DNA from: Thermoplasmata archaeon
GTDB lineage: Archaea > Thermoplasmatota > Thermoplasmata > Lutacidiplasmatales > UBA184
Direction of reading: 5' to 3'
DNA length: 53,916 nt
NCBI GenBank assembly: GCA_021819135.1
Contig: JAKASE010000015.1
Coordinates: 1 to 53,916, forward strand
Part shown: positions 13,283 to 29,944 of the stretch, piece by piece
Layout: every line of letters begins with the position of its first letter
Position numbering within the stretch: the stretch's first letter is position 1
Program-made: the position numbers and the translations under genes
The notes under the pieces: model-generated
What the model saw: the letters and a program-made list of their open reading frames with translations, nothing else
Told to the model about the DNA's origin: nothing
Databases searched by the model: none

Positions 13283-13329
13283 GAGTCCGTTTCCCCCGGT
13301 CCAGGACCGAAGGAGCGACACGGCCCAGG

Positions 13330-13338: not shown

Positions 13339-13545
13339 TTTCGGCCCTCGGAATTGGCGCACCTCGGTCACCGGAGTGCGACAGGAACCGTCAACCCACG
13401 GGCCCCCGCTTGAACGACTCTTGGTCCACCGCGCACGCGGCGGGCGAGCGCCGGTGCGGGACCGGCCGTGGCCCCCGACGGGTCCCGGCGTGGGCCGACT
13501 GCGGTCCGTACTCTTGATCCTGCGAACGGTCCCGCGAAGTCCACG

Positions 13546-15246
13546 TTACGAACCGGTCGAGGGAAGCGCCCTCGGCGACGGCTCGCGCACGAACCGCAGG
13601 AGGAAGCTCCGCAGCTCGGGCAGCGGTCGTCCGAGGACACGCTCCACACCGGCCAGGATGACGAGGTCGGCGCGGGAGAGGGACCGGGTGAGAAGCACGA
13701 CCAGGATGTAGAGACCGGCACCGAAGAAGAAGAGCGGAACGACGACCCACGGAGTGCGGACCATCATGGTCGCGAAGACGACCACCGGACCGCCGATCGC
13801 GAGGGTGATCCCGAGCGGTACCAGAAGCGAACGACGGAACGAGGTGATGCGATGCGAGGTCCACAGGGCCCGCAGGCCAAGGAGCGGGAGCAGCGCCCGC
13901 GCCACTCCCCAGGCGATCGCCGCGCCGAGGAGCCCGAGGCTGGGGATCAGGAGGAGGCTCAGGGAGATGTTGGCGGCGGCCGAGGCCCCGGCGTTCCAGG
14001 CCATGACCTTGGCCTTGCCGAGCCCTCCCAGGCACGACTGGACCGGTCCGACCACCGTGGAGAAGAACGAGGTGATCACCAGGATCTGGAGGGCGGGGGC
14101 CCCCGCGATATAGCGATGCCCCCACACGAACTCCATCGAGGTCTTGGGGGCGAACGCGAACAGGAGGAAGAACGGGACCGTGACCACGAGCACCCACCGG
14201 GTCGACGTGAGGTAGGTCGTCCGGATCGTGTCCGGATCCCCGTCCCGCATCAATCCCGCCGCCACCGGGAGGAAGATGAACGCAAGCGCGAGGGTCCCGA
14301 ACAGGAGGATCCGGGCGAGGGTCATCGCGGCAGAATAGTACCCCACCTCCGAGGACGGCCAGAAGACCCCGAGGATGAGCGTGTCCGCGTACGCGGTGAT
14401 GTATAGGAGGTTGTTCGAGCCCCAGAACGCGAGGGTGAAGTGCCAGAGGCTCCGCTTCGGGCGGCGACGGGGCACGCCGTCATGGTTCACCTGGCGCGGG
14501 AGTTTCCGCAGAGCGTACCCGACCAGGGCGAGCAGCGAGACGGCTCCCGCGGCCACGTAGGCCACCATGACGGCGAGGAGCCCGATGTCGAACCCGACCA
14601 GGGCGATCAGGAAGATCAGGAACAGTCCGGCGTTCAGGCCGTTGCGGAGGATCGCGTTCGGAAGGACATCCTTGAACCCCTGGAAGATCCCGCTGATCGC
14701 GATCGAGAGGATGCTGAAGCCGACCGTGATCGACATCAGCTGGAAGACCGGGACGAGGGCGGTGTTGTGGAAGCCCCGAGCCATCCAGGGGGACAGCGCC
14801 CACACCGCGAACGAGAGCGCGAACGCGGCGACGATGGCGACCCCCAGGCCCCAACGGATGATCGCGCGGCGCTCGGCGGGATCCTGCTCGTAGGCGAGCG
14901 ACCGGGCCATCGCCTGGCCCATGCCGAGCAGGCCCATCGTCGACAGGAGGCCGGTGACCGAGACTCCGAGGGTGAACTCCCCCCAGCTCGGGACCGAGAG
15001 GATGCGGACCGCGATGATGTAGGCGAACGCCGTGAGCAGGATCTGGGCGACCGAACCGACGAGGGAGATTACCGAGCCCCGGCCGACGGCGCGGAGCGAG
15101 TTCTCCACCCGGTCGGTGACTTCCGCGCCGGGGTCTCCGGTGTCCGCGAGTCCCGGCCCCGGAAGGCTGGGAGGGGGGTCCTGACCCTCCACGGTCAGTC
15201 CCGTCCGGTCGGCCCGGAACTCATCCCAAGCCTGACGTCGGACCAC
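13546..15246 (-). CDS. Polysaccharide/lipid-linked oligosaccharide flippase (MOP superfamily)
   Basis: A polytopic membrane protein with about 12-14 helices, of the Wzx/RfbX-like branch of the MOP (MATE-like) exporters. The N-terminal part reads SLRAVGRGSVISLVGSVAQI, typical of flippase starts. Later segments such as GMGQAMARSLAYEQDP and FWGSNNLLYITAYADTLILG match the family. It would move lipid-linked glycans across the cytoplasmic membrane, and so is the export step of this island. The start is uncertain. GTG codons lie at 15246, 15192 and 15108, giving 566, 548 or 520 residues; the last has a GGAAG about 10 bases upstream. The open frame extends much further, but that part overlaps the divergent gene at 15736 and is not coding-like. 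A TATA-like sequence is at 15308-15316. Confidence 0.87.
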   Translation of the reverse strand: MVRRQAWDEFRADRTGLTVEGQDPPPSLPGPGLADTGDPGAEVTDRVENSLRAVGRGSVISLVGSVAQILLTAFAYIIAVRILSVPSWGEFTLGVSVTGLLSTMGLLGMGQAMARSLAYEQDPAERRAIIRWGLGVAIVAAFALSFAVWALSPWMARGFHNTALVPVFQLMSITVGFSILSIAISGIFQGFKDVLPNAILRNGLNAGLFLIFLIALVGFDIGLLAVMVAYVAAGAVSLLALVGYALRKLPRQVNHDGVPRRRPKRSLWHFTLAFWGSNNLLYITAYADTLILGVFWPSSEVGYYSAAMTLARILLFGTLALAFIFLPVAAGLMRDGDPDTIRTTYLTSTRWVLVVTVPFFLLFAFAPKTSMEFVWGHRYIAGAPALQILVITSFFSTVVGPVQSCLGGLGKAKVMAWNAGASAAANISLSLLLIPSLGLLGAAIAWGVARALLPLLGLRALWTSHRITSFRRSLLVPLGITLAIGGPVVVFATMMVRTPWVVVPLFFFGAGLYILVVLLTRSLSRADLVILAGVERVLGRPLPELRSFLLRFVREPSPRALPSTGS

Positions 15247-15307
15247 GGTCTCGCGTTCACATTCGCTCCCCGGCCAGCGAACTGGAGCCGCATAGGTGCG
15301 GGTACGA

Positions 15308-15316
15308 CATATAACC
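15308..15316 (-). promoter_or_regulatory. TATA-like box of flippase gene
   Basis: Minus-strand GGTTATATG. It predicts initiation near 15285, about 40 bases before the GTG at 15246. Confidence 0.5.
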
Positions 15317-15706
15317 TGTAGCCTCGACAGAGTTGTCCCGCGCCGGAGCGACCGAAACGACGGGTCCGCGTCGGAGACTTGAGGGTCTCTCTCGGCGCGT
15401 TGGCCCATCCTGCCCACGGCAATCCGAGGACCCCCCTTCGCTTGTCTCACAATCCAGGCGTCGCTGCGCCAGTACGGGCTTGTGGACGCCCGGTCCGGGC
15501 GTGCCGGGGCTCCCGGCGCGTGACCCGCGAGGGAGACACTAGCCCGATCCCCCGCAGCGGAGGAGCTGCGGCCGCCCCGGAAGAGGATCTCGACGGGACT
15601 CATCCGGGCCGATCGCACCTGCCAAGGTCCACGGATCGGGCCGGCGGCGAGCGCATGGCCCCTGCCCCTTCCTCGGTAGCGAGCGGCGCTCTCGCGCTGG
15701 GCAAAG

Positions 15707-15718
15707 GTTAATGATAGG
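15707..15718 (+). promoter_or_regulatory. TATA-like box of DUF1616 gene
   Basis: GGTTAATGATAG, with its centre about 23 bases before the GTG at 15736. The transcript would begin at or beside the start codon, making it leaderless. Confidence 0.45.
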
Positions 15719-15735
15719 ACTCTGGTCAGCGGCGC

Positions 15736-16647
15736 GTGAGTACGCCGGCGACGGTCGCGTCCCCCACCATCTTTCGCGAGTCCGGCCTGGTCGTGGTCTT
15801 TGGCCTCACCGTGCTCTACGTCGCGGTCGTCCTGCTCGCGCCGGGATCCGTCCTTCAGATCCCGCTCGGGGTACTCGAGCTGCTCTTCGCCCCCGGCTAC
15901 GCGATCGCGGCGATGGTGTTCGTTCGACGCCCGCTCCTTCCGCCCGCGGCCGAGTTCTCGGTGTCCGTTGGGCTGAGCGTGGTGTTCAACGTGCTCATCG
16001 GCCTCCTCCTCGTGCTCTTCGGGGCGGGAGTGGAGATCAACTATCTCGCGCTGGCCGATGTGGCCGCCACTCTCGCCGGGCTCGCCGTCTACGCGGCGCG
16101 AGGGACGTCCCCCGGGACGCATTCCCTTTCCTCGGCGATACGCCGTGAGCTCGCCCTGCCTTCGGTTCGCCCGTCGCTCCGTCCAGCGGTGTACGCGCTC
16201 CTCATCGCCACGCTTGTCGCCTTCTCGGCGGTCGTGTACGTCGGAGTCTCTCAGACCTCCTCTCCTCCCCCGACCTCGCTCGCGTTGCTCGGACCGACCG
16301 GCACGACCTCATCCGTTCCCACGGCGCTCGTGGTCGGGCAGGTCGGCCTGGTGATGGTGCAGGTCCAGGACGGCTACTCGCCCGGCGCGCTCGGGCTCAC
16401 GGCCGCGGCGGCCTTGGTGGGCGTGGTCCCCCACAACACGTCCACGCCCTGGAGCCTGCCCCTCACGCTCTACCCGGGAACGACGAGCACGCTCGCGCTC
16501 ACGGTCACGTACGGGGGCGAGACGACGGTCAACGTCACGTTCGAGTTCCCGCAGCCCGGAAACTACACCCTGACCTTCTCCCTCGGGCCCATGGCCGGGG
16601 GACCCCCCCTCCTGGGCACCGGCATGGGCCTCACGGTCCAGCCCTAG
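15736..16647 (+). CDS. DUF1616-family membrane protein
   Basis: A 303-residue protein with four hydrophobic helices in the first ~130 residues, including VVVFGLTVLYVAVVLLAPG and LLFAPGYAIAAMVF, and another at about residues 155-175. A ~110-residue exported domain with sequons (PHNTSTPW, TVNVTFEF, GNYTLTF) follows. The G-x-x-E-L-L-F-A-P-G-Y region matches archaeal DUF1616 proteins, which often sit beside glycosylation genes; their biochemical role is unknown. The GTG start at 15736 lies just where initiation from the upstream TATA-like box is expected, so the message is probably leaderless. A small membrane-protein gene begins 5 bases after the stop, making a likely two-gene operon divergent from the flippase. 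Confidence 0.8.
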   Translation: MSTPATVASPTIFRESGLVVVFGLTVLYVAVVLLAPGSVLQIPLGVLELLFAPGYAIAAMVFVRRPLLPPAAEFSVSVGLSVVFNVLIGLLLVLFGAGVEINYLALADVAATLAGLAVYAARGTSPGTHSLSSAIRRELALPSVRPSLRPAVYALLIATLVAFSAVVYVGVSQTSSPPPTSLALLGPTGTTSSVPTALVVGQVGLVMVQVQDGYSPGALGLTAAAALVGVVPHNTSTPWSLPLTLYPGTTSTLALTVTYGGETTVNVTFEFPQPGNYTLTFSLGPMAGGPPLLGTGMGLTVQP

Positions 16648-16652
16648 CCCTT

Positions 16653-16862
16653 ATGGCGACCATCGTTACTCTCGTCGCGTCGGTGGTTCGTGTGGTCATC
16701 CAACCGATCGTGATCGGCACCTCGGCGACGATCCTCGCGGTCGCGCGAGAGATCAGCCCGAAGTGGCTGACCGGTTTCAAGGCCCAGCTCCTCGATGTGG
16801 TGCTGGCCGGCCTCGTCTTTCTCCTGTTCGTGTACGTGCTCCTGCAGATCCAGACCGTCTAA
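16653..16862 (+). CDS. Small membrane protein with two helices
   Basis: A 69-residue protein with two hydrophobic segments (about residues 5-29 and 47-65) joined by a short hydrophilic loop (REISPKWLTGFKAQ). It starts 5 bases after the DUF1616 stop codon, so the two are very probably co-transcribed and perhaps co-translated. No family is recognised. The size, topology and coupling suggest a small accessory subunit of the DUF1616 protein or of an envelope complex; this is inference from context. Confidence 0.65.
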   Translation: MATIVTLVASVVRVVIQPIVIGTSATILAVAREISPKWLTGFKAQLLDVVLAGLVFLLFVYVLLQIQTV

Positions 16863-16914
16863 TGCTCGACCGCGAGGACGGGGAGTAGACTGCCCGCCCC
16901 GGCGCGGGAGGGGC

Positions 16915-19035
16915 CTACAGATAGGTGATCGTCACCCGGGGAGAGTTCCCGCTCATGACGAACGTCCCGTTCGTGGGCGTCGCGGTGTAGCCCGCGACCA
17001 CGCCGACGGTGAAGGCGTGGGTCCCGTTGAGCACGTTGATCGGCAGGGTGCTGTTCGAAGTGCTCTGCGTCTGACCATCGACCGTCACCGACCAGACCGT
17101 CCCCGCCGGTAGCCCGACCTCGGCGAACGTCACGAAGTAGAACGGGGTCGTCATCTGGTAGATCGTGAACACCGAGTCGGCGTAGACGGTCGCGAAGTAG
17201 CTCGCGTTGTCGAACTTGTCGACCTGGCCCGGCAGGAGCGCACCGTGCGTCTGCACGGAGGAGGAGCCCAGGAAGTCCGCCCGGAGCTGCGTATCGTAGA
17301 TGTCGGTCACGACGTACTCGCCGAGGTGGAGCCGGGCGGTGTTGTTCGGGGTGAACACGGTCCCGTTGAACACGTCGTACGTGGAGAACGGAACGTGAAA
17401 GCCGCCGATCGCCCCGTACACGTCATAGGCGAGCATGTCCCCCCAGAGATGGTCGCTCTGGTTGAGATGCGTCCGCGCCCAGACCCCGTCCTCGAACAGC
17501 GCCGGGGTGACGTACATCGGTGAGTTGATCGCGAGCGACTTCGTCGGCTGGTACTGGTCGCGGCTCAGGCCCGGCACCAAGTTCCCTCCAGCGAAGACCA
17601 TGAAGACCACCACGATCGCCACGGTGGGGGCGGCCCACGCGGCCCGCCGGGCGCTCCGGCCGGTCCGGCGCGGCCGGGCCGGGTCGTCCTCCTCCGGACG
17701 GAAGGTCTTGTCCAGCTTCGGGAGGAAGTGGCGGAGGAAGTACCAGGCCGCCGCCGGCGCGGCGACCACGAGGGCGTACTCGGTGGTTCGGATCGCGACG
17801 AACGAGTACGGGGTCGCAAAGAGGATGAGCGAGACGGTGAGGATGAGCATCGAGACCAGGAGCGACGTGGCGAGGAACGGACGGGGCTTGCCCCGGACGG
17901 ACTCCCGGAGCGTGAGCAGACCCATGAGCACGAGGAAGGCGAGGCTCGCGACGATCCAGATGAGCTGGTACGTCGGATAGGAGCTCCCCGCCGCCGCGGT
18001 CTTCGTGGCCAGGGGGGCGTTGCTGAGCAGCAGGAGGAGGTTCTTCTCGAGGACCGTCAGCTGCCGGAGCAGCGTCGACGCGGTGAAGAAGAAGACGTAG
18101 AGGAAGAACAGGACGAGGTACCGGACGGCGACCGACGCCGAGCGGAGCTTTTCGAACATCGGCTTTCCCCACAGGAGCATCGGGATCACCGCGAGACCGC
18201 CGAGCCAGACGCCGAGCACGTACGACGTGAGATGGTGGCTCAGGACCACGAAGGAGGAGAACACGAGCACGAGGAGCCGCAACGAGGTCGCGTGCTCCTT
18301 GGGCGTGTTCAGGAGGAAGGTGATGACGAGGACGGTCAGGATGAAGAACTGGATGGCGAACTCCTGCTGGACGATGTCGTTGAACGTGATCGAGGGGGCT
18401 GCGAGGTAGAACAGGACGCCGAGCACGGCCGCTCGCGGTCCCAGGAGGCGGTTACCGATCGCCCAGACCGCGGCCGGAACGATGAGCAACCGGGAGATGG
18501 GGAGCATCCACGCGAAGGAGCTCGTGAGCGGGATCCCCAGGAAGACCGACCCTTCGGCGTTGTAGAGACCGCTCCCGGGATAGAACGAGTACGTGACCGC
18601 CTGTCCGGTAGTGTTCCCGCCCGGTATCCACGTCGCGTGCGCGAGCATCGTCGCGGCGAACTGGTAGTTGAAGACCGCATCCTGCCCGTACAGTACGCCG
18701 TGCGGGGCGAGCAGCGGGTACAGCAGGAAGCAGGTGGCGGTAGGGACCAGGACGAGCAGGTACGGGATCCGGTCGTGTAGGATGATCAGGAGGAACGGAG
18801 CGACGACCAGCGCGAGGGAGAAGACGAAGAACACCCGGGACGGAAGGAGCAGGATCTCCTGGGCCCCGAGGTACTTGAAGGCATAGATCGAGTACGCGAG
18901 CCCGATCAGGCCGAGCAGGCTCGCGAACATGGCGAGCACCGCACCGATGCCGATCTCCGGGCCCCCCGGCCCCGAGGAGGCCGCTCCGGACGCCGGCATG
19001 TCCGGAACGGATCCCGAAGGCGAGGAGTCTGCCAT
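16915..19035 (-). CDS. GT-C-like polytopic membrane glycosyltransferase with C-terminal surface repeat
   Basis: A 706-residue protein with about 11-12 membrane helices in the first ~470 residues, then a ~235-residue exported region. The first large loop has LYGQDAVFNYQFAATML, whose Asp after the first helices resembles the catalytic acidic residue of GT-C enzymes using lipid-linked donors (PMT/OST/ArnT type). The WWDYG of AglB/STT3 was not seen, so this is not a standard oligosaccharyltransferase. The last ~65 residues are one copy of the repeat found in surface proteins here (VTFAEVGLPAGTVWSVTVDG), presumably outside the cell. A TATA-like GTTAAGTAAG at 19071-19080 gives a short leader to the ATG at 19035. 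Sugar transfer outside the membrane is likely; donor and acceptor are unknown. Confidence 0.75.
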   Translation of the reverse strand: MADSSPSGSVPDMPASGAASSGPGGPEIGIGAVLAMFASLLGLIGLAYSIYAFKYLGAQEILLLPSRVFFVFSLALVVAPFLLIILHDRIPYLLVLVPTATCFLLYPLLAPHGVLYGQDAVFNYQFAATMLAHATWIPGGNTTGQAVTYSFYPGSGLYNAEGSVFLGIPLTSSFAWMLPISRLLIVPAAVWAIGNRLLGPRAAVLGVLFYLAAPSITFNDIVQQEFAIQFFILTVLVITFLLNTPKEHATSLRLLVLVFSSFVVLSHHLTSYVLGVWLGGLAVIPMLLWGKPMFEKLRSASVAVRYLVLFFLYVFFFTASTLLRQLTVLEKNLLLLLSNAPLATKTAAAGSSYPTYQLIWIVASLAFLVLMGLLTLRESVRGKPRPFLATSLLVSMLILTVSLILFATPYSFVAIRTTEYALVVAAPAAAWYFLRHFLPKLDKTFRPEEDDPARPRRTGRSARRAAWAAPTVAIVVVFMVFAGGNLVPGLSRDQYQPTKSLAINSPMYVTPALFEDGVWARTHLNQSDHLWGDMLAYDVYGAIGGFHVPFSTYDVFNGTVFTPNNTARLHLGEYVVTDIYDTQLRADFLGSSSVQTHGALLPGQVDKFDNASYFATVYADSVFTIYQMTTPFYFVTFAEVGLPAGTVWSVTVDGQTQSTSNSTLPINVLNGTHAFTVGVVAGYTATPTNGTFVMSGNSPRVTITYL

Positions 19036-19070
19036 GGTGGAGCGGTAGAGTGGACCGCCGACAGAGAACC

Positions 19071-19080
19071 CTTACTTAAC
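19071..19080 (-). promoter_or_regulatory. TATA-like box of GT-C-like gene
   Basis: Minus-strand GTTAAGTAAG about 40 bases before the ATG at 19035, giving a predicted leader of about 15 bases. Confidence 0.5.
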
Positions 19081-19166
19081 CCCCTCCGTGGAGCTCGGCC
19101 CCGGCCCCGAGACCGATCGAGTCTCGCCTTTGTGGTGTTACATCGCCGGCGAGCCGCGTGACTGTC

Positions 19167-20369
19167 TCATCCGCCCATCGAACCGGAGACACCGCGAGCG
19201 GCTCCGGCGAGCTCCTCGCGATATCCTTCAAGCGTGGCCCGTGCCGTCGCCGGCCATGTGAACACCGTGGCCGCCTTTCTCCGGGCTGCGGTCCCTAGCC
19301 GCTTCCGTCGGTCCGGGTCCTTGAGGAGACCCACGACCGCCTCGGCGAGCGCATCCGGGGATCCCGCCTCGACGAGCACGCCCTCCTGCCCCGACGTGAT
19401 CGCCTCCGGGATCCCGCCCACGCGAGAGGCCACGATCGGGGCACCGGCGGCCATCGCCTCGAGGACCGAGAACGGGAACGAGTCGTAGAGGGACGGCGCG
19501 ACGATCACGGTCGCTCCGCTGAACACGGCGGGAAGCTGTTCGTCGGGAACGTAGCCGTGGAAGTGCAGGTGCGCGCGCAGCTCCGGCGGGAGGGCGAAGG
19601 TGCGGGTCAGTTGCGCCGGCATCTTCCCGGTGAACTCGAAGGTCACGTCGGGGACCTCACGGACGATGCGCGGCATCGCCTGGACGAGGGTCCCGATCCC
19701 CTTCACCAGCGTGAAGCGACCGACGAACAGCACGGTCGGCCCCCGACGCCCGTCCGCCGGGATTCCCTCGGGAGCGATCCCGGGACGGAACCGGTCGGTG
19801 TCGACCCCGTTGTGGATGACCCGGATCCGATTGGGCGAGATACCGAGCCCGATCAGATGGTCGGCGGTGTACTGGCAGACCGGGAACAGTCGGCCCGGAT
19901 GACTCAGGGCCGACCACTCCGCGAGCCGCAGGACCGGTTCGATGGCCACCTGCCAACGCTCGGTGATGTCGGGGGTCTGCCCCAGCGACTCGAGGATACG
20001 GATCGACTCCCGCTGGCCGGCGATCGTGCTGTGGACCGTCCGCACGAACGGCGTCCCGCGCATCATCGGCCCGGCCAAGAGGTCCGGCATGTGGGCGTGC
20101 TGCGTGTGGATCAGGTCGAACCGCTCGCGTCGCGCGAACCCGGGGAGCTGCCGAAGGAGCGCGATCTGGAACCGGGCATTGTAGAGGAAGGTGTCACGGG
20201 CCTCGGTGATCGGGATCACCCGGGCCCGGTGGTCGACGGCGGCCTCCATCTCTGCGCGGCCGTATCGGACCGAGCCCTGTTGACGGGTCAGGGTGATCAC
20301 CGAGATATCGGCCTGCCGGGCCAGTTCGCGCACCAGCGCGACCGAGTAGGTGCCTACCCCGCCCCGCAC
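19167..20369 (-). CDS. GT4-family glycosyltransferase, N-terminus disrupted
   Basis: A GT-B-fold glycosyltransferase of family GT4, cytoplasmic, transferring sugar from a nucleotide-sugar. It shows VRTVHSTIAGQRESI, VCQYTADHLIGLGISPNRI, VIHNGVDTDRFRPG, VLFVGRFTLVKGIGTLVQAM and DSFPFSVLEAMAAGAPIVAS. The last is the donor-site E-x7-E motif with Asp in the first place. The first in-frame ATG/GTG is the GTG at 20369, but the frame continues upstream as TLRVCLLAPEFLPVRGGVGTY, the expected first beta strand and glycine loop. That frame has no ATG, GTG or TTG after its stop. An ATG at 20422, directly behind a GGAGGGG ribosome-binding site, is one base out of frame. A missing G, or a non-standard ACG start at 20414, would restore it. 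The true gene probably spans 19167-20422. Confidence 0.85.
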   Translation of the reverse strand: MRGGVGTYSVALVRELARQADISVITLTRQQGSVRYGRAEMEAAVDHRARVIPITEARDTFLYNARFQIALLRQLPGFARRERFDLIHTQHAHMPDLLAGPMMRGTPFVRTVHSTIAGQRESIRILESLGQTPDITERWQVAIEPVLRLAEWSALSHPGRLFPVCQYTADHLIGLGISPNRIRVIHNGVDTDRFRPGIAPEGIPADGRRGPTVLFVGRFTLVKGIGTLVQAMPRIVREVPDVTFEFTGKMPAQLTRTFALPPELRAHLHFHGYVPDEQLPAVFSGATVIVAPSLYDSFPFSVLEAMAAGAPIVASRVGGIPEAITSGQEGVLVEAGSPDALAEAVVGLLKDPDRRKRLGTAARRKAATVFTWPATARATLEGYREELAGAARGVSGSMGG

Positions 20370-20710: not shown

Positions 20711-21778
20711 ATGACCACCACCCTCGGCACCCTTCAGGGCATCGCGGATCCGGGTCGCGAGACGCGACCGGCGGTCGGGGAGGCCCGGGAAGGGGGATCG
20801 TCCTCCGTGCCGGCTCCCCGTCGCAAGTTCATCTACATCCTCGGCAGCGGCCGATGCGGTTCCACGCTGCTCGAGATCATCCTCGGGTCACATCCCCAGA
20901 TCCGGGCGACCGGGGAGTATCACGGGATCCCGTTCCCCAAGTGGCTGCCCGCCGCCGTCTGCTCCTGTCAGGCGTCCTTCGACCGGTGCACGTTCTGGGC
21001 CCCCATCTACGAGCAGTACACCCGGTCGATCGATGTGGAGCACCATCGCCGGGAGCAGGGTCGGTTCGAGAACTACTCGAGCCTACCCCGCACGCTCGCC
21101 TACGCCTTGTTCGGGTCCCGGTCGCTCCGACAGCATGCGGAACGGATGCAGCGGGTGATCCCCCTCATCGCCTCGGCGAGCGGTAAGCCGTTCGTCGTCG
21201 AGTCGAGCAAGAGCGCGGTGCGAGGGTTCGTCTACCGGCTCGCCCCCGGGTCTGACCTCGACATCTACTACATCCACCTGGTTCGGGACGGACGAGCCTA
21301 TATCCGCTCGAAACTGGGCACGCCCGACGGCGGGGGGCTCGGCCGACGCGCGATGCGCCAGCATCCCCTCGCGCCCCCCCTCGAGTGGATGATGACGAAC
21401 CTGTTGGCGGTCCTGCTCTGCGGTCGCCCCAGGGACCGGTACCTCCGGTTGCGCTACGAGGAGTTCATCGGCGACCCGGCGGGATCCCTGCGGGCGATCG
21501 GCACGTTCCTGGGCGTGGACCTCTCGGAGGTCGCCGACGCCGTCCGTCAGGGCCGGGGGATGCCCATCGTCCACCTGCTCGGCGGGAACCGCCTGCGATT
21601 CTCCGACTCGATCCGGGTCGTTCCGCATCACGTCGACGAAACAGGGGTGGGGCGCCGCGAGGACTGGCTCTACCGGATCCTGGCCGGTTGGCTCGCGATC
21701 CTGTTCGGGTACCGCATCTCCGATCCTCAACGGGCTCCCCGATCCCGGGCCCCGACCTCTCCGGGAGAGTCCGGCTAA
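20711..21778 (+). CDS. PAPS-dependent sulfotransferase 1
   Basis: A 355-residue sulfotransferase-fold protein, expected to move a sulfuryl group from PAPS to a hydroxyl or amine, most likely on a glycan. The 5'-phosphosulfate loop is YILGSGRCGSTLLE (about residues 39-52). The 3'-phosphate strand and serine are in VVESSKSAVRGFVYR, followed by IYYIHLVRDGRAYIRSKL. The cysteine motif VCSCQASFDRCTFW occurs after the first helix and is conserved in all three sulfotransferases here. A late motif is HLLGGNRLRFSD. No membrane helix is seen, so the enzyme is cytoplasmic and would act before export. Its stop overlaps the next start (TAATG at 21776-21780), indicating translational coupling. The acceptor is unknown. 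Confidence 0.88.
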   Translation: MTTTLGTLQGIADPGRETRPAVGEAREGGSSSVPAPRRKFIYILGSGRCGSTLLEIILGSHPQIRATGEYHGIPFPKWLPAAVCSCQASFDRCTFWAPIYEQYTRSIDVEHHRREQGRFENYSSLPRTLAYALFGSRSLRQHAERMQRVIPLIASASGKPFVVESSKSAVRGFVYRLAPGSDLDIYYIHLVRDGRAYIRSKLGTPDGGGLGRRAMRQHPLAPPLEWMMTNLLAVLLCGRPRDRYLRLRYEEFIGDPAGSLRAIGTFLGVDLSEVADAVRQGRGMPIVHLLGGNRLRFSDSIRVVPHHVDETGVGRREDWLYRILAGWLAILFGYRISDPQRAPRSRAPTSPGESG

Positions 21779-22722
21779 TGCCCTCGGAAGCGCCCGGGTC
21801 GCCCCGACCCTCAGCTCCGCTCAAGCTGGTCTATGTGCTCGGGTCGTACCGTTCGGGCACCACCGTGCTCGGCGCGCTCCTGGGTGCCGCCCCCGGGATA
21901 CGGACGGCGGGCGAGATGCAAGCGCTGCCGGCGGCCTTCTGGGAGAACCGACAACGTTGCTCGTGCGGCGAACCGATCGCGCAGTGTCCATTCTGGACCG
22001 ACGTTCGCCAGTACGCCGAGACCCGCGTCGATCTCCATGCCCTTCGGGCCGGGCAACGCCGGTTCGAGACGTACCACGGTACCCTCCGGGACTTCGGCCG
22101 GGGGCTATTCGCTCGCCGGGAGTTCCGACGGCACGTCGAGCGGGTGGCCGCCTTCACGGAGGCCGTGGCGGGGAGGACCGGCCACCGGATTCTGGTCGAC
22201 CTGAGCAAGAATCCGATCCGCGGGTACGTTCGCCGCTTCCTTCCCCGATCCCGGATCGATGTGTACTACCTGCACGTCGTTCGCGACGGGCGGGCGGTGA
22301 TGTACTCCCGCACGTGGCGGCCGGGCGGCGGGCGGATCCGGCCGCTGATGCAGGGCCCCGCCGCCATGACCGCCCGCTGGATCATCGTCAACCTGGCCTC
22401 CTCCTATCTCTGCGGAGGGAGGCCGGATCGCTACCTGCGCCTCCAGTACGAAGAGCTCGTCGCTCACCCGCGCGCGACGCTCGAGAGGATCGGCCGGTTC
22501 CTCGGCACCGACCTGAGCCCGGTCATCGATCTGCTCGAACGGGGCGAAGCGGTCCCGCTGGACCACCTCGTCGCCGCGAACCTCCGCCTGCGGAAGGCGC
22601 CGGAGCTCGTGCTGCGATCGGACGATGCGTGGCGTACCGAGCTGCCGAGGAGTTCGGCCCGGACGTTCCGGTGGATCGGGGGATGGTTGGCGCGGCACTA
22701 CGGGTACCGGGATCCGTCGTGA
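21778..22722 (+). CDS. PAPS-dependent sulfotransferase 2
   Basis: A 314-residue relative of the preceding gene. The ATG at 21778 overlaps the previous stop, and the P-loop then falls at residues 18-31 (YVLGSYRSGTTVLG), the right distance from the N-terminus. The 3'-phosphate region is VDLSKNPIRGYVRRFL and the next strand VYYLHVVRDGRAVMYSR. The cysteine motif is QRCSCGEPIAQCPFW. The late motif diverges from the others (HLVAANLRLRKAP instead of HLLGGNRLRF), suggesting a different acceptor. The longer open frame upstream overlaps sulfotransferase 1 and is rejected. It is probably co-transcribed with sulfotransferase 1, and adds sulfate at a second position or to a second sugar; that split is inference. 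Confidence 0.87.
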   Translation: MPSEAPGSPRPSAPLKLVYVLGSYRSGTTVLGALLGAAPGIRTAGEMQALPAAFWENRQRCSCGEPIAQCPFWTDVRQYAETRVDLHALRAGQRRFETYHGTLRDFGRGLFARREFRRHVERVAAFTEAVAGRTGHRILVDLSKNPIRGYVRRFLPRSRIDVYYLHVVRDGRAVMYSRTWRPGGGRIRPLMQGPAAMTARWIIVNLASSYLCGGRPDRYLRLQYEELVAHPRATLERIGRFLGTDLSPVIDLLERGEAVPLDHLVAANLRLRKAPELVLRSDDAWRTELPRSSARTFRWIGGWLARHYGYRDPS

Positions 22723-22828
22723 ATGGGTCCGGGAAGCGGACTCGTGGATCGTCTTCGCCGCTCCCATAGCCTCCGCGGACTTCGCATCGCAGGCGACCGC
22801 GGTCCGTCACCGGGGTTAGAAGATGGTA

Positions 22829-23896
22829 CTAGCCGTTCGTGCGCTCGGTGGCGGCGCCTGCGCCCCGCAGGTACCCGAACCAGTAGGCCATCCATCCCCC
22901 CAGGGTCCAGAACGCCCAGCGGCTCTCTCGCGATCCCAACGAGACCGACGCGAACCGGGACTCGAGCGTCAGCGACGGCTTGAAGCGCAACCGGTTCCCC
23001 CCGATCAGGTGCACGATCGGGATCGGCTTCCGGTCCTTGACCCGGTCCACGACGGGGCTCATGTCGAGCTCGAGGTACTCCCCGATCCGACGGAGCACCT
23101 CCACGGGCCGGGAGACGAAATCCTCGTACCGCACCCGTACGTAGCGCGCCCCCGGTCGGGAGCAGAGAAGGTTCGCGAGGAGGTTCGGGACGACCCAACG
23201 GGCCGTGATCTCCCAGGGGGAGACTACCAGCCGGCGCGTCTCCGATCCCAGCTCGTCTGGTAGCGTGGTCTTGGAGTACATGTAACCGCGGCCGTCGCGC
23301 ACCAGGTGGATGTAGTAGACGTCGAAGTCCGCCGACCGCGCGAAGGAGTAAAGGTACCCGCGCACGGCGTTCTTGCTCGACTCCGAGACGAACTCGGTGC
23401 CGGCGATCCCCGAGACCATTCGGACGAGCTCCGCCATGCCGCGGGTGTGCTCCCGGAACGCCGCGGTGCGGAAGAGCCGATGAAGGACGGTGCGCGCGAG
23501 GCTGGGATACGCCTCGAACCGGGCCTGTCCCGCCGCCTGCCGGTCGAAATCCACGACCGTGCCGTACCGCGCGAGCACCTCCGACCAGAAGGGACACCGG
23601 TCGTAGGGCTCCCCGCAGGAGCAGACGCTCCCCGGGCGCCAGCGCGGGAACGCGACTCCGTAGAACTCCCCCATCGCCCGGATCGCGGGATGGTTACCCA
23701 GCACGATCTCAAAGGCGGTCGAGCCGCACCGGCCCGTGCCGAGGATGTAGATCAGTTTCCGCTTCCTACCCCGCGAGGCCCCAGGTCGACCGCTCTCGTC
23801 CGTGCGGGTGGCCTCCGGCGCGGCCGACCCGTCTGGGAGGGACCCGGGCGAGGGTGAGGCTTGCCCTGCGGGTGCCCCCGAATTCCATTTCGTCAT
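22829..23896 (-). CDS. PAPS-dependent sulfotransferase 3
   Basis: A 355-residue sulfotransferase from the ATG at 23896, chosen because a TATA-like CGTTATCTATCA at 23934-23945 predicts initiation just upstream. An ATG at 23959 would lie upstream of that promoter. Motifs: YILGTGRCGSTAFE (P-loop), VSESSKNAVRGYLYS (3'-phosphate site), VYYIHLVRDGRGYMYSK, the cysteine motif VCSCGEPYDRCPFW, and the late motif HLIGGNRLRFKPSL. It is closer to sulfotransferase 1 than to 2 in the P-loop and late motif, and would have the same length with this start. It converges on sulfotransferase 2, pointing to duplication followed by inversion. The ~40-residue N-terminal part is low-complexity. Confidence 0.88.
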   Translation of the reverse strand: MTKWNSGAPAGQASPSPGSLPDGSAAPEATRTDESGRPGASRGRKRKLIYILGTGRCGSTAFEIVLGNHPAIRAMGEFYGVAFPRWRPGSVCSCGEPYDRCPFWSEVLARYGTVVDFDRQAAGQARFEAYPSLARTVLHRLFRTAAFREHTRGMAELVRMVSGIAGTEFVSESSKNAVRGYLYSFARSADFDVYYIHLVRDGRGYMYSKTTLPDELGSETRRLVVSPWEITARWVVPNLLANLLCSRPGARYVRVRYEDFVSRPVEVLRRIGEYLELDMSPVVDRVKDRKPIPIVHLIGGNRLRFKPSLTLESRFASVSLGSRESRWAFWTLGGWMAYWFGYLRGAGAATERTNG

Positions 23897-23933
23897 CTCG
23901 GGCAGGAAGGGACGCGTCGAGCATGCGGACCCC

Positions 23934-23945
23934 TGATAGATAACG
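23934..23945 (-). promoter_or_regulatory. TATA-like box of sulfotransferase 3
   Basis: Minus-strand CGTTATCTATCA, centred about 44 bases before the ATG at 23896. This gives a leader of under 20 bases and rules against the upstream ATG at 23959. Confidence 0.5.
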
Positions 23946-24153
23946 TTCGCCCGATGCATTGCGTCAACCCGCCTGCACCGGAAGGATGTGATGTGCGCGA
24001 GGGACCGTCGTGCGATCGTGATCGGTTCATGGGTCCCGGAGGGACGGTTGCCTCGGGGACGATCACAGGAGAGGGGGACCGAGCCGGACCTCAGTCATCT
24101 CGGTCTCGGATGAACGGCACTGCCCCAGTCCGACAAGAGATAGCTGAGTTCGC

Positions 24154-27100
24154 TCAGCTCGGAGGGGAGGGGGGCGCGGGGGGAGGAGTCCTCCGCTTGC
24201 GACGACCTACAAGGGCGAGCGCGATTGCCGCGAGTACCACCACCGCCAACGCTCCACCGACCAGCCAGTACCCCTCGTTCCCGGGGAGACCCAGGAACGT
24301 GCTCGAGCCGTTCCCGTTCGAGGGAGGGGGCGAGTGGGACGCGAACGAGATGGAGATGACCGTGCCCGCGTCCTGAATGTTCACCGACCCACTGGGCGGC
24401 GCCGCGACGTACCCGCTCGGTGCCCCGACCGTGTAGGTGTAATTCCCGTTCTGCGCCTCGAAAGTGATGGTGTTCAGGGACGAGCTCTCCAGCATACCAC
24501 CAAAGGTCACCGACCACGCGGTCCCGGCCGGAAGCCCTGACGCATCGAACGACACCGCGTACCGGGTGGGGGGGACCGCGGAGAACGAGATCGGAACGGT
24601 GACCGGCGCACCGCTCACGTTCACCGTCCCGGCCGCAGGAGTCGCGGTGAACCCGGCGGCGCTCGCCGTGAACGAGTAGCTCCCGTTCGTCTCCGAGAAC
24701 ACAATACTGGTCGACGTCGTCGACTTGGCGACGCCTGCCAGGGTGACCTGCCAGGCGCTGCCGTTCAGCGCCCCGCTCTCGGTGAACGTCACCGTGTAGT
24801 TCGCGGCGAACACGATCGACTCACTGACCGGCGCGCCGCTCACCGTCACGGATCCCGGCCCGGACGATACCGTGACGTACCCCGCCACGCCCGCCACCTG
24901 GTAGTTGTAGGTGCCATTCGGCACCATGAAGGAGACCGACGGTCCGGTGGACCCCCCCGTGACCCCGGCGAGCGTCACCGACCAGACGGTACCGGAGGCT
25001 AGGCCGGTCTCGTTGAAGCTAACCAGATACAGCACGTTAGAGAAGTTGACCGAAATCGTGAGGGGGGCGCCGTCCACCGTGAAGTTGCCCTCAGGCGCCC
25101 ACCAGGTCCGGTTCGCGGACGTCGCGGTGTAGGTATACGTGCCGTTCGGCAGCTGATAGCCGACCGACCCGACGCTGGAGGAGTTGCTGAACCCGCCCGA
25201 GACGTTCACCCACCACTCGGTACCGGAAGGAAGATTGCTCTCCACGAAGGTCACCGACTGGTTCTGTTCGACGAACGTCACGTTGACGATCATGGGCGCG
25301 CCGTTCACGGTGAACGTGCCCCCATACGGTACCGGTGCCCATCGCGCGTCGGTGCTCGTCAGGACGTACGTGTAGGTTCCGTTGGGGAGACTAAGGCTCA
25401 GCGACGTTCCGGTCGATGAGTGGGACGAACCGCCCGGGCTCGTGACGTTGAACCACCACTCCGGCGGCGTGGCTCCGAACCCGGTCTCCTGGACCGTCAC
25501 GAGGTAGGTCAGCGCGGTCCATGCGATCGACTCGTTCACGGCCGCTCCCTGGACCTGGATCGTGCCCGAGCTCGGGCTCGCGGTGAAGCCGGGAACCGCC
25601 CCGACCTGGAACGGATAGCTACCGTTCGGTATCCCGGCGAACGTGATGCGCGTCGTGCTCGAAGAATGCGTGGTGCCGTTCAGCGTGACATCCCAGGTCG
25701 TCCCGGTCGGCAACGCATGGCCGGTGGGCTGGGAGAACGTGACGTTGTACGTCACTTCCGACCACTGGATCGGCTGATTGACGTCCGCGCCCGACACACT
25801 GATCGTTCCCGAGCTCGGGCTTGCCGTGAACCCGGGAATCGCTCCCACCGCGAAAGGATAGTTGCCGTTCGGCAGCGCGGAGAATTTGATCGAGGTCGAA
25901 CTCGAAGAGTGGGTGGTGCCGTTCAAGGTCACGCTCCAGGTCGTACCCGACGGCAGCGTGTGCCCGGTCGGCTGGGAGAACGTGACGTTGTAGGTTGGCG
26001 GGGAAGACTGCGTGAACGTGAGGTCGATGGTCGCCGGGGCGCCGCTGATCGTGACCGATCCCGAGCTGGGGACAACGGTGTAGCCGGCCGGGGGAGAAAC
26101 CGTGTAGCTGTAGGTACCATTCAGCAGCTGGAAGGTCAGTGAGGTCGATGTGGTCGTCTTCGCGCTCCCTGCGACGGTGACACCCCACTGAGCGCCGCCC
26201 ACAATGCCGGTCTCCTGGAAGGTCAACGGATACTTGCTCGCGGATCCGGGAAGACCGAACGCGAGGACGGAACCGCCCATATTCTCGACATAGATCCTCC
26301 CGTAGGCGATGGACGGCGCGGCGAGGAACGGAGCCTGGGCTTGGTAGCTGTAGAGTACCTTGCCTGTACTCGCGTTCAGGACGTCGAGTAGGTTTCCTAC
26401 GGCCGAGACGTTTCCCGTGGAGGAAATATTCCCCGTGACCAACACGAGGATGCCGTTCGCGTAGTTGGGGGCTCCGTAGACCTCCCCGGGGAGTCCCAGC
26501 TGCCAGACCGTCTGGTTCACGTCGGGATCGAAGGCGCGGATCGAGCCGAAGTAGGTCTTCCCACCAATGTTGGTACTGTGCCCGCCCACGTAGATCAGGC
26601 CCCCGCCGTACGCGTCGGGGGTGACCGTGTTCCGGGAGTACGAGACCCGGTACTGCCACACCGGACCATTCGAGATATTGTTCCGGTTGAAGGCGAACGA
26701 CCAGCCGTCCTTGTTCGTCGCGAACACCATCGTAGGGCCCCCGGACGGGTTCACCAGGGTCGGAGTGGTCCCGAAGTCCCCGTCCGACTCCTCCTGGGCA
26801 GTAGGGAGTGTCCAGTGATTGAGCAGCTGCAGGGTGCTCGCGTTCCACTCCATCAGCGAGTCCCCGTACTCGGGCACCGAAAGGTTGTAGCCGTTCCCGG
26901 TCGCCGCCCAGACCGTGTTGGTCGCCGCGTCGTATGCCGGGGTCCCCCAGATGCTTCCTCCGCACTCGCCAGACGTCTGGTTTGCCGCGCACGATGCTTG
27001 TTGGGACGGGCTGAGGTCGTTGAAGAAATGAACGAGCAAATGGGAGCTGAGCGAGATCTGGTCGAGCCCCCCGTCCACGAGGGGATTGTCGCAGTTGCTC

Positions 27101-27771
27101 GAGACCCCTATGTAGGCGTAACCGAGGCTCGGGAGGACGAGGGGGCTTCCCCAGATGTAGTAACCGTTGGCGACGCTCCCGACTTGGTAACTCCAGTCGA
27201 CCGTCCCGTCTGACTGGTGGAGGGCGTAAAAGGTGCCCGCGCCGCCCCCGACGTAGACATCACCGTTCACGACGGTCGCGGAGGAGGTGATCCCGTCCGG
27301 ATAGTTGCACGTTCCCTTTCCGGGCTTGGCATCCGTGCCTAGGTTGGGCGATTTCCAGACCAGCGACCCGGTCGTCGCGTTGAGGGCGTAGAAGAATCCG
27401 TTCCCGCCACCGACATACACGGTGTTGTCCACTTCGACGGGCTCCGCCTGTAGATAACCGGGATTCCCGGCTCCGATGGGGTAGGTCCACACCTGTGTCA
27501 GTTGGGCAACATTGGACGAGGAGAGCGTGCTCTCCTCCGGGTTCGCCGAGTTTCGCGTCACCTCCCCCAGATACGTCGGCCAGTCCGAGCTGTCGGTCGC
27601 CGCGCTCGGAGCGCTCCCGCGGTCGGGCACCGAGGTCTGCCCGCCGAGAGCGCCGGCGACCGAGAACGGGATCGCGATGTTGACACCGATGAGCAGGAGC
27701 ACTAGGGCAAGCACGAGCGCGACGAGCAGGCCCGACGCGCGGACTCGATGTTTCCCTCGGAGAAGGGGCAC
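24154..27771 (-). CDS. PQQ-type beta-propeller surface protein with eight repeats
   Basis: A 1205-residue secreted protein. After a hydrophobic N-terminal helix (about residues 12-35), residues 55-520 form a PQQ/pyrrolo-quinoline-type propeller with blades such as VYVGGGNGFFYALNATTGSLVW and YVGGGAGTFYALHQSDGTVDW. Eight repeats of the GLPSGTTWSVTLNGT type follow (about 525-1140). Repeats 2 and 3 are nearly identical, a recent duplication. Repeats 4-6 match three consecutive repeats of the protein at 4206-7016. The end has STFLGLPGNEGYW, a membrane helix and GRRKRR plus a Pro-rich tail. The propeller may bind a ligand or act as a scaffold; quinone-dependent dehydrogenase activity is not supported by visible catalytic residues. 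TATA-like GGTTTATTAG at 27823-27832 precedes the ATG. Confidence 0.87.
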   Translation of the reverse strand: MPLLRGKHRVRASGLLVALVLALVLLLIGVNIAIPFSVAGALGGQTSVPDRGSAPSAATDSSDWPTYLGEVTRNSANPEESTLSSSNVAQLTQVWTYPIGAGNPGYLQAEPVEVDNTVYVGGGNGFFYALNATTGSLVWKSPNLGTDAKPGKGTCNYPDGITSSATVVNGDVYVGGGAGTFYALHQSDGTVDWSYQVGSVANGYYIWGSPLVLPSLGYAYIGVSSNCDNPLVDGGLDQISLSSHLLVHFFNDLSPSQQASCAANQTSGECGGSIWGTPAYDAATNTVWAATGNGYNLSVPEYGDSLMEWNASTLQLLNHWTLPTAQEESDGDFGTTPTLVNPSGGPTMVFATNKDGWSFAFNRNNISNGPVWQYRVSYSRNTVTPDAYGGGLIYVGGHSTNIGGKTYFGSIRAFDPDVNQTVWQLGLPGEVYGAPNYANGILVLVTGNISSTGNVSAVGNLLDVLNASTGKVLYSYQAQAPFLAAPSIAYGRIYVENMGGSVLAFGLPGSASKYPLTFQETGIVGGAQWGVTVAGSAKTTTSTSLTFQLLNGTYSYTVSPPAGYTVVPSSGSVTISGAPATIDLTFTQSSPPTYNVTFSQPTGHTLPSGTTWSVTLNGTTHSSSSTSIKFSALPNGNYPFAVGAIPGFTASPSSGTISVSGADVNQPIQWSEVTYNVTFSQPTGHALPTGTTWDVTLNGTTHSSSTTRITFAGIPNGSYPFQVGAVPGFTASPSSGTIQVQGAAVNESIAWTALTYLVTVQETGFGATPPEWWFNVTSPGGSSHSSTGTSLSLSLPNGTYTYVLTSTDARWAPVPYGGTFTVNGAPMIVNVTFVEQNQSVTFVESNLPSGTEWWVNVSGGFSNSSSVGSVGYQLPNGTYTYTATSANRTWWAPEGNFTVDGAPLTISVNFSNVLYLVSFNETGLASGTVWSVTLAGVTGGSTGPSVSFMVPNGTYNYQVAGVAGYVTVSSGPGSVTVSGAPVSESIVFAANYTVTFTESGALNGSAWQVTLAGVAKSTTSTSIVFSETNGSYSFTASAAGFTATPAAGTVNVSGAPVTVPISFSAVPPTRYAVSFDASGLPAGTAWSVTFGGMLESSSLNTITFEAQNGNYTYTVGAPSGYVAAPPSGSVNIQDAGTVISISFASHSPPPSNGNGSSTFLGLPGNEGYWLVGGALAVVVLAAIALALVGRRKRRTPPPAPPSPPS

Positions 27772-27921: not shown

Positions 27922-29133
27922 CTACTTGCCGGATGACCAGGACGCCATCTCCGCCCAGAGATGCGTATAGGCATCCACCGAGGAAGAGAGCGAGAACCCC
28001 CTCTCCACCTGGGCGCGCGCCTCACGCCGTACCCCGGCGAGGCGGGCGGGATCCCGGAGCAGCGCCGACGCCCGCTCCGCGAGGAGCTCGGGGGTAGCGG
28101 CCAGGATCCCACCGACCCCGTCTTGGACGAGCTCTTCGGCCCCCGGAAGGGGGGTCGTGAGCACCGGGATCCCGGAGCTCATGCACTCGATCCAAGTGAG
28201 CGGCGGTGCGGCCGTGGACCGGAGGTCGCCGATCGGAGAGAGCATCGCATCGGCGGCCGTCCGCGCGTGCCTGAAGCCCTCCACGGTCCCGCCGATCTCG
28301 ATGCCGGGCCGCTCGTACTGGGCGAAGGATCGGCGGTAGTGCTCGGGCTTCATGCAGAAGAAGAAACGCCACTCGTTCGGACCGTCCCGAAGCATCCGCT
28401 CCGCCGTACGGATCGCGAAGAGCAGGTCCCGCGGCAGCATCTGCTGGAGGAACCCCGACCAGAAGATGACCTTCTGACCCTCCGCGACCCCGAGACTTCG
28501 GCGGGCCTCCGCGCGCTCGCCCTCGGTCGCAGGATGGAACTCCCCGGGGTCGACCGCCCAGGGGATCGTGCGGATCCGCCTCGGACGCATACCGAGCGCC
28601 ACGAGCCGGCGGGCGAACGCGCCTGAGAATGGGACGACGCGGTCGAACCCGGCGAAGCTCGCCCGAAGGGCCCAGTCGTACACGAACCGCCAGCCGTTGT
28701 AGGTGGGCGCCGAGATGGAGATGGGCACTCCCATCGTGAACGACCGCGTCACGGCCATCACCGGCCCGTAGTTCGTGAGGAAGTGCACGACGTGGGGCCG
28801 GCGGACTCGGACGTGACGACGTATGGCGCTCAGCACTCGGCCGTAGCTCATCGTCTTCGCGACGTAGTTGCCGGAGGCCCGCAGCCAGCGGTACTCCTGG
28901 TTGAACCGCTCGCTTCGATCGACGTCGAACCGTACCGGGGGGACGAACTCGCACGGGTACGGCGAGCGTTCGGGGATCGGCTCGTCGGTGAGGGAGATGA
29001 CGTCGATCTCGTGGCCCCGGCGCGTGAGTTCGCGGAACGCCTCGAGCCAGTAGGTCTTGTCCCCCGCATGTCGGTAAGGGAGGATCCGATTCCCGACGAA
29101 CAGGATCCGTAAGGTCGGGGTCCCGACGATCAC
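27922..29133 (-). CDS. GT4-family glycosyltransferase
   Basis: A 403-residue GT-B glycosyltransferase. The first strand is TLRILFVGNRILPYRHAGDK, then LTRRGHEIDVISLTDEPIP, the acceptor-side VVHFLTNYGPVMAV, and the donor-side VIFWSGFLQQMLPRDLLFAI. The end of the catalytic domain has WIECMSSGIPVLTTPLPGAEEL, a variant of the E-x7-E element. The GTG at 29133 is chosen over a distant ATG at 29520: the strand begins just after it, and a CTTAAG TATA-like box at 29162-29167 would give a leader of only a few bases. Divergent from the PIG-L gene. Likely adds one sugar to a lipid-linked glycan; specificity unknown. Confidence 0.86.
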   Translation of the reverse strand: MIVGTPTLRILFVGNRILPYRHAGDKTYWLEAFRELTRRGHEIDVISLTDEPIPERSPYPCEFVPPVRFDVDRSERFNQEYRWLRASGNYVAKTMSYGRVLSAIRRHVRVRRPHVVHFLTNYGPVMAVTRSFTMGVPISISAPTYNGWRFVYDWALRASFAGFDRVVPFSGAFARRLVALGMRPRRIRTIPWAVDPGEFHPATEGERAEARRSLGVAEGQKVIFWSGFLQQMLPRDLLFAIRTAERMLRDGPNEWRFFFCMKPEHYRRSFAQYERPGIEIGGTVEGFRHARTAADAMLSPIGDLRSTAAPPLTWIECMSSGIPVLTTPLPGAEELVQDGVGGILAATPELLAERASALLRDPARLAGVRREARAQVERGFSLSSSVDAYTHLWAEMASWSSGK

Positions 29134-29347: not shown

Positions 29348-29944
29348 ATGGTCGTGCTGGCGGTCGGCCCGCACCCGGACGATGTCGAGATCGGATGCTT
29401 CGGGACCCTCGCCCGCCTCTCCGCGCACGAGCGGATCGTGATCGCCGTCATGACCTCGGGCGAGGTCCGGGGAGACACCGAGGAACGGGAACGAGAGGCC
29501 CGGGAGTGCGCCGAGAGCATCGGCGCGACGATCGAGTTCCTGAAGTTCCGCGACGGGAGCCTGACCCAGGATGCGGAGTCGGTCGGTCGACTGCGCGCGC
29601 TCCTGAAACAGCATCAGGCCTCGACCGTCTTCTGTCCCTACCCCTCCGATAGCCACCAGGACCACGTGGCGACGCACGGGATCGTCATCGCCTCCGCCGC
29701 CCACACCCAGGAGATCCTTCTCTACGAGACCCCCTCGACCTTCGGGTTCCGCCCGGATGTCTTCTACGACATCTCGGCGACGCTTCCCGCCAAGCTTCGC
29801 GCCCTCGCGACGTTCCGCTCTCAGAGCGATCGGCCGTACCTCGATCCGGCATTGGTCGAGGCCCAGGCCCGGTACTTCGCGCTGCGGCTGCACCAACCGG
29901 GGAAGGCGTTCGAGGCGTACGCGTTGTTCCGCGCCGTCCGGTAG
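29348..29944 (+). CDS. PIG-L/LmbE-family deacetylase
   Basis: A 198-residue protein of the zinc-dependent PIG-L family, which remove N-acetyl groups from GlcNAc-containing substrates. Metal-site motifs are VGPHPDDVEIGCFG near the N-terminus and SDSHQDHVATH near residue 101. The ATG at 29348 places the first motif at residue 6, as usual, and is preceded by GGAGAGAG as a ribosome-binding site; a longer frame from 29267 adds only a low-complexity extension. In this setting it probably deacetylates a nucleotide- or lipid-linked HexNAc, and the resulting free amine could be sulfated by a neighbouring sulfotransferase. That link is inference. It converges on the ATP-grasp gene. Confidence 0.88.
   Translation: MVVLAVGPHPDDVEIGCFGTLARLSAHERIVIAVMTSGEVRGDTEEREREARECAESIGATIEFLKFRDGSLTQDAESVGRLRALLKQHQASTVFCPYPSDSHQDHVATHGIVIASAAHTQEILLYETPSTFGFRPDVFYDISATLPAKLRALATFRSQSDRPYLDPALVEAQARYFALRLHQPGKAFEAYALFRAVR

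Follow-up and report, generated by a model that had tools for sequence, protein, structure and literature searches.

The stretch analysed here, called the window throughout, is an entire contig of 53,916 bases (C36) from a Thermoplasmata archaeon of the order Lutacidiplasmatales, whose genome (G000) comprises 2.2 Mb in 47 contigs and is 91.25% complete. It contains three genes for sulfotransferases (STs) of the P-loop fold that binds 3′-phosphoadenosine 5′-phosphosulfate (PAPS), a gene for adenosine 5′-phosphosulfate (APS) kinase, cysC, whose product makes PAPS, and, beside cysC, a phosphatase gene:

20711 to 21778, plus strand: sulfotransferase ST1, P-loop PAPS fold (PF13469, 58.3 bits; AlphaFold model)
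21778 to 22722, plus strand: sulfotransferase ST2 (PF13469, 54.7 bits; TAATG overlap with ST1)
22829 to 23959, minus strand: sulfotransferase ST3 (PF13469, 47.9 bits; convergent with ST2)
43069 to 43662, minus strand: APS kinase, cysC (PF01583, 193.3 bits; NCBIfam apsK, 199.8 bits with a cut-off of 138.7)
43845 to 44642, minus strand: MtnX-like HAD phosphatase, candidate 3′-phosphoadenosine 5′-phosphate (PAP) phosphatase

All three ST reading frames exceed the curated cut-off (27 bits) of Pfam family PF13469 (Sulfotransfer_3), and each has the 5′-phosphosulfate loop and the arginine/serine pair for the 3′-phosphate, in agreement with the initial annotation, which had described three STs with PAPS motifs from the sequence. 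The gene arrangement given there is likewise correct: the ST1 stop codon (TAA, 21776-21778) overlaps the ST2 start codon (ATG, 21778-21780), and ST3 converges on ST2 across a gap of 106 bases. A longer GTG frame for ST2 from 21385 is an open frame only, and ST3 has an alternative start at an internal ATG (23896), the one used in the initial annotation. ST2 and ST3 are 38% and 44% identical to ST1, and a tree of the family places ST1 and ST3 as sisters (support 100/99) with ST2 separate; this tree was read within the order, the short-locus rows L132 and L135 being excluded by the program and L133 and L139 filling less than a quarter of the columns.

The PAPS-binding residues are conserved in relatives. 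In the ST-A family alignment, the phosphosulfate-loop residues G50 and T52 are kept in 18 of 18 rows covering them, R192 and S200 of the 3′-phosphate motif in 22 of 22 covering rows, and Glu69 in 19 of 19 rows, and a CSC...C motif is kept throughout the family. Glu69 aligns with an acidic stretch of tyrosylprotein sulfotransferase, where we take a residue of this type to be the catalytic base. The AlphaFold model of ST1, the protein chosen for the fold test (pLDDT 81.9), has a sulfotransferase fold: 22 of its 26 Foldseek matches in the PDB (E <= 0.001) are sulfotransferases, several of them PAP-bound, and the other four are three CTP synthetases and one retinol dehydratase. A search of the order with PF00685 gave matches in 10 of 106 genomes, every one at a PF13469 place, and added nothing.

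Sulfate activation and its linkage to sulfotransferases

The window's APS kinase, at the coordinates initially annotated for cysC, is full-length and has complete active-site motifs. It lies 19 kb from the ST genes, and because of this distance the link between them had to be judged by comparison with relatives. The initial annotation had also recorded no ATP sulfurylase, which is true of the window and not of the genome: contig C12, tied to the window solely by assignment to one genome, encodes an ATP sulfurylase (sopT, 420.5 bits; cut-off 322.95), aprA (925.6 bits; cut-off 641.75), aprB (146.8 bits; cut-off 135.65) and a DsrC-family protein (101 bits; cut-off 53.5), the sulfur genes being located in loci L067 and L068 (positions 1-20000 of each). 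Its dsrA- and dsrB-type genes scored 290.6 and 310.3 bits with their best models, yet below the cut-offs, and DsrK-, DsrE2- and TusC-like proteins were below cut-off as well. Sulfate activation is present in the genome, probably within sulfur energy metabolism. Siroheme- and TusA-like genes were also read by eye on C12. Across the order, NIR_SIR matches were found in 5 of 106 genomes, and, in the part of the Lutacidiplasmatales paper that was available, dsrAB is reported only in TMEG-bg1 among its genomes (PMC9287336).

The comparison covered 106 genomes of the order, many of the ST genomes being fragmented, and 302 Thermoplasmata genomes outside it. Within the order, APS kinase (E < 1e-15) was counted in 83 genomes, ATP sulfurylase in 80, CysH (E < 1e-18) in 26, PF13469 in 22 and a sulfite-reductase domain in 5; the genomes counted as having no APS kinase include G024 (a 32-residue piece, 4e-10) and six with weak matches (G001-G003, G039, G040 and G070). 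Genes were called not by a standard gene finder but by a purpose-written codon-model script, which missed the ST of G026; the neighbour counts therefore cover 33 ST genes in 21 (not 22) genomes, and those made at 6 kb are shortened by contig ends. All p values for gene co-occurrence ignore kinship among genomes.

The initial annotation had advised looking in related genomes for co-occurrence of cysC and these STs in the absence of reduction genes. A link between cysC and STs was found in gene distance within the order and in gene presence outside it. An ST gene and a gene for APS kinase or ATP sulfurylase are at most 10 kb apart in 7 of 22 genomes, where the expected number is 0.51; at a limit of 23 kb the count is 9 of 22 (8 of 21 for the relatives alone) and the expected number 1.14. 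The larger limit was picked to include the window's own genome, and the expectation takes no account of short contigs. At 6 kb, 5 of the 33 ST genes have such a neighbour. In three genomes (G054, G081 and G089), genes for a sulfotransferase, a GT2 glycosyltransferase, a HAD phosphatase and an ATP sulfurylase are co-directional, and in two of these APS kinase comes next on the opposite strand. Outside the order, APS kinase occurs in 22 of 31 genomes with PF13469 versus 19 of 271 genomes without it (p 2e-15), and PF13469 and APS kinase matches are at most 300 bases apart in at least 13 genomes of three families (f6, f9 and f15), a minimum because the count used 27 sulfotransferase and 22 APS kinase matches. 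In G117, which belongs to another Thermoplasmata family, overlapping reading frames for a DHH protein, a short sulfotransferase, APS kinase and a Na-sulfate symporter form an operon-like array (locus L238, 696-4084, on contig G117:C1). Gene presence within the order gave no such link: APS kinase is found in 20 of 22 ST genomes and in 63 of 84 others (p 0.15), a non-significant difference because APS kinase is common there.

CysH, the marker of sulfate reduction, does not follow APS kinase in these genomes. Among genomes with APS kinase 21 of 83 have CysH, compared with 5 of 23 genomes without it (p 1.0), leaving 62 of 83 with APS kinase and no CysH. The 22 ST genomes include 17 that combine APS kinase with no CysH and 3 that have CysH. 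In the window's own genome, 91% complete, the best PF01507 match reached 21.5 bits, below the cut-off of 22.5. The initial annotation had named, as the pattern contrary to its proposal, APS kinase genes always accompanied by reduction genes and never by STs; the 106 genomes do not have this pattern. A 109-row tree of APS kinases places the window protein in a 60-row clade (100/97), where it groups with the APS kinase of G076 at weak support (89/63); the six CysH-linked APS kinases found in the examined loci make up a single subclade (99/81) of the same clade, and the window protein lies outside that subclade. A second APS kinase-like clade of the order has 37 rows (for example, L158 5352 and L161 5555); in the loci surveyed, none of these rows has a gene labelled flippase, HAD, CysH or sulfotransferase within 6 kb.

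The HAD protein (43845-44642), whose nearest solved relative is MtnX, is a candidate PAP phosphatase. It keeps a CR.CGICKAQ stretch in 6 of 6 aligned sequences, and several relatives encode it close to APS kinase or ATP sulfurylase. Within the order, APS kinase occurs in 43 of 44 genomes with this HAD protein versus 40 of 62 without it (p 2e-5); the 44 omit G001, whose match has two stops. Beside APS kinase there are also PF04185 phosphoesterase-family proteins, near or adjacent to it in three genomes (window 46751-49879; L149 4750-6099; L159 6783-8237).

Sugar genes around the sulfotransferases

The flippase, GT4, GT2, PIG-L and epimerase genes that the initial annotation had placed in the window were all recovered as Pfam matches, together with further genes for making sugar nucleotides and for membrane proteins:

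start 2999: epimerase (Pfam match)
13546 to 15246, minus strand: polysaccharide flippase (PF01943)
15736 to 16647, plus strand: DUF1616 membrane protein (Pfam match)
16915 to 18999, minus strand: large membrane protein of 694 residues, no Pfam or NCBIfam match
19167 to 20369, minus strand: GT4-type glycosyltransferase, divergent from ST1 (Pfam match)
27922 to 29133, minus strand: GT4-type glycosyltransferase (Pfam match)
29348 to 29944, plus strand: PIG-L deacetylase family (Pfam match)
31875 to 32741, minus strand: NAD-dependent epimerase/dehydratase (Pfam match)
33173 to 34315, plus strand: phosphohexomutase family
34355 to 35449, minus strand: GT4-type glycosyltransferase (Pfam match)
38260 to 40041, plus strand: GlmS-like protein with SIS and amidotransferase domains
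40038 to 40589, plus strand: GNAT acetyltransferase
40586 to 41416, plus strand: sugar nucleotidyltransferase (PF00483)
41608 to 42933, plus strand: GT2 glycosyltransferase (Pfam match)
51884 to 52684, minus strand: GT2 glycosyltransferase (Pfam match)
52701 to 53744, minus strand: GHMP kinase family

A glycosyltransferase, flippase or epimerase gene is found within 6 kb of 30 of the 33 ST genes; as a rough control, 14 of 54 low-scoring APS kinases have a sugar gene at that distance. In the window, cysC is preceded by an opposite-strand run of GlmS, GNAT, nucleotidyltransferase and GT2 genes, and in G076 (L082) the same order leads to APS kinase and then to a sulfotransferase and a large membrane gene. 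A large membrane protein of the type at 16915-18999 is encoded within 6 kb of 7 of the 33 ST genes, three of the seven being the window's own. A profile search for it as an oligosaccharyltransferase against PDB sequences was empty, and its AlphaFold model (pLDDT 43.2, pTM 0.34) was unusable for a fold search. Its consensus has a VWGDxLxY-like motif near the C-terminal part. Near the contig end, at 50004-51683, the window also has an IS1634-family transposase.

A proposed sulfated surface glycan and its rivals

A sulfotransferase and APS kinase module within an archaeal glycan island, with a predicted product, is well supported. From these data we infer PAPS use, a sugar acceptor, a cytosolic site of action and export of the sulfated product, the choice of acceptor following from the neighbouring genes only. 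In our assessment, the contig is probably an island for building a surface glycan, equipped with a PAPS-fed sulfation module of its own. In such a pathway, the ATP sulfurylase of C12 would make APS, the island's APS kinase would turn it into PAPS, and ST1 to ST3 would move sulfate onto hydroxyls of cytosolic, probably lipid-linked, sugar intermediates, after which the flippase would export the sulfated product. Each of the three paralogues would most likely have its own target position or its own glycan. In particular, two genomes of different genera (G025 and G041) share three corresponding ST pairs (support 100/100, 100/100 and 92/67; bootstrap 100, 100 and 92), a pattern consistent with separate tasks for the paralogues that makes plausible the initial suggestion of different roles.

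Several observations weigh against this interpretation. The best structural matches of ST1 are polyketide and tyrosylprotein sulfotransferases (CurM, tyrosylprotein and olefin-synthase enzymes at the top), the sugar sulfotransferases (heparan 3-O- and N-sulfotransferases) being weaker and lower in the ranking. A search of the own genome (91% complete) with PF02516 (STT3/AglB) gave no match, the control being positive in four archaea. The sulfated surface glycan of the initial annotation is partly supported, with a predicted acceptor, by the sugar genes near STs and by the linkage of cysC to STs in relatives; the empty STT3/AglB search speaks against a protein N-glycan of the customary form. 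Further, the non-significant presence test within the order counts on the same side, as do the 8 of 22 ST genomes of the order that have no ATP sulfurylase match and the 9 of 31 PF13469 genomes outside it that have no APS kinase match. The 59 high-scoring APS kinases that were surveyed have ATP sulfurylase as a neighbour within 6 kb in 30 cases, a sugar gene in 22, CysH in 6 and a sulfotransferase in only 4. Finally, 45 genomes of the order have APS kinase and neither CysH nor PF13469, and APS kinase therefore has further uses.

The structural ranking of ST1 is also an argument for a protein acceptor, namely tyrosine sulfation of the surface proteins encoded nearby. Among the 15 top Foldseek matches, 13 are tyrosylprotein sulfotransferases, with a weak sequence match as well, and surface-protein genes adjoin several STs; the window itself has such a gene at 24154-27771. 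A fold likeness at 15-19% identity leaves the acceptor unfixed, however, and the sugar genes near nearly all STs speak for sugars; the glycolipid enzyme NodH is likewise assigned to PF13469 in the consulted portion of PMC11625862. We regard protein sulfation as improbable. A sulfated product could also be a membrane glycolipid made by the same cytosolic route. Haloarchaea make sulfated membrane glycolipids, and such a product would agree with the empty STT3/AglB search and with the glycosyltransferases and phosphohexomutase nearby. No feature points specifically to lipid acceptors, and both the polysaccharide-family flippase and DUF1616 genes within 6 kb of ST1 and the conserved large membrane protein beside STs argue against such a product; a glycolipid is also unlikely, if a little less so than a protein.

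An assimilatory role, in which cysC would belong to sulfate reduction and lie near the STs by accident, has in its favour the six examined APS kinases that sit with ATP sulfurylase and CysH, the APS kinase of those 63 genomes that have no ST and the 19 kb between cysC and the STs in the own genome. It was rejected as the leading explanation because no CysH exceeded the cut-off in that genome (91% complete), the window's APS kinase falls outside the CysH-linked subclade and APS kinase and CysH are unassociated in the order; the linkage of STs to APS kinase outside the order also contradicts it. We consider this role very improbable.

Related systems and biological meaning

The genetically proven archaeal glycan sulfotransferases that we found in the literature are alkaline-phosphatase-like only and come from a salt-loving archaeon, for which sulfation has been proposed as an answer to salinity; these are Agl30 and Agl31 of Halobacterium salinarum, two enzymes of the alkaline-phosphatase superfamily that act on different sugars of one surface glycan and are encoded in an aglB-anchored N-glycosylation cluster (PMC11980604, as far as its text was accessible). 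The window similarly has several sulfotransferases within an archaeal glycan gene cluster; unlike Agl30 and Agl31, they are P-loop proteins of PF13469, and the own genome has neither STT3 nor PF00884 matches.

Relatives present a second kind of candidate. When 23 loci were scanned for the motif of PF00884, the alkaline-phosphatase-like family, 21 of them yielded a total of 25 matches; these represent 24 distinct genes, one of which occurs in two loci (examples are L163 9690-11138, L103 1735-3240 and L242-L261). All 25 have a threonine (WTxPSH or WTxPAH) where the sulfatase cysteine sits, a replacement that we presume to be meaningful. Considering only genomes with PF00884, at least 15 of the 53 ATP sulfurylase genes have a match within 15 kb, where 2.0 would be expected, and so do at least 12 of the 79 APS kinase genes, where 2.8 would be expected, counted among the matches listed, to about 1e-10, with one per gene and kinship ignored. 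Because Halobacterium's proven glycan sulfotransferases share their superfamily, these threonine-type proteins may serve as sulfotransferases in genomes that have no P-loop kind, which is a lead rather than a result. More speculatively, and with considerable doubt on our part, an activation cassette of ATP sulfurylase, APS kinase and the MtnX-like HAD protein could be shared across Lutacidiplasmatales and plug into surface-glycan islands whose sulfotransferases have one or the other of two unrelated folds (P-loop or threonine-type alkaline-phosphatase-like); the own organism might then draw its APS from the island with aprAB, ATP sulfurylase and dsrAB-type genes, sulfur energy metabolism feeding surface sulfation directly.

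Beyond Halobacterium, Marine Group IIb archaea are, we assume, Thermoplasmatota relatives of the present organism. The available part of PMC6864105 describes APS kinase and ATP sulfurylase in them and suggests that PAPS serves sulfotransferases; these differ in being of the cysDN type and are treated there under assimilatory sulfate reduction, with no glycan cluster described in that part. In bacteria, the sulfated capsule cluster of Vibrio sp. KMM 8419 has been used to call the pairing of cysC with a sulfotransferase a hallmark of sulfated polysaccharide synthesis (PMC11641403, in the portion seen). The window resembles it, as described in that portion, in that cysC lies in one cluster, here a 54 kb contig, with genes for sulfotransferases, glycosyltransferases and sugar-nucleotide enzymes; the Vibrio cluster differs in its cysND type ATP sulfurylase inside the cluster, its ABC capsule export in place of a flippase and its solved product structure. 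The tyrosylprotein and CurM/olefin-synthase sulfotransferases (PDB 3ap1, 5wrj, 4gbm and 4gox) share the fold, a similar phosphosulfate loop and the VRDGR...S motif with the window's STs, and differ in their acceptors and in sequence (15-21% identity). Literature searches on archaeal sulfotransferases, PAPS and Lutacidiplasmatales, which left subscription papers largely uncovered, found no description of such a system, and the paper on Lutacidiplasmatales (PMC9287336) nowhere uses the words sulfotransferase, cysC or glycosyltransferase in its main text.

Overall, the chemistry is ordinary and the gene pairing is known in bacteria; it is a new variant for archaea, using another enzyme class than Halobacterium's for a similar job. 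If the proposed function is correct, a PAPS-based system in acid-soil archaea would be a second enzymatic route to sulfated archaeal surfaces, with a different reason for having them, and it would partly explain why so many Lutacidiplasmatales carry APS kinase without CysH. The contig offers a directly testable gene set, including a candidate partner phosphatase.

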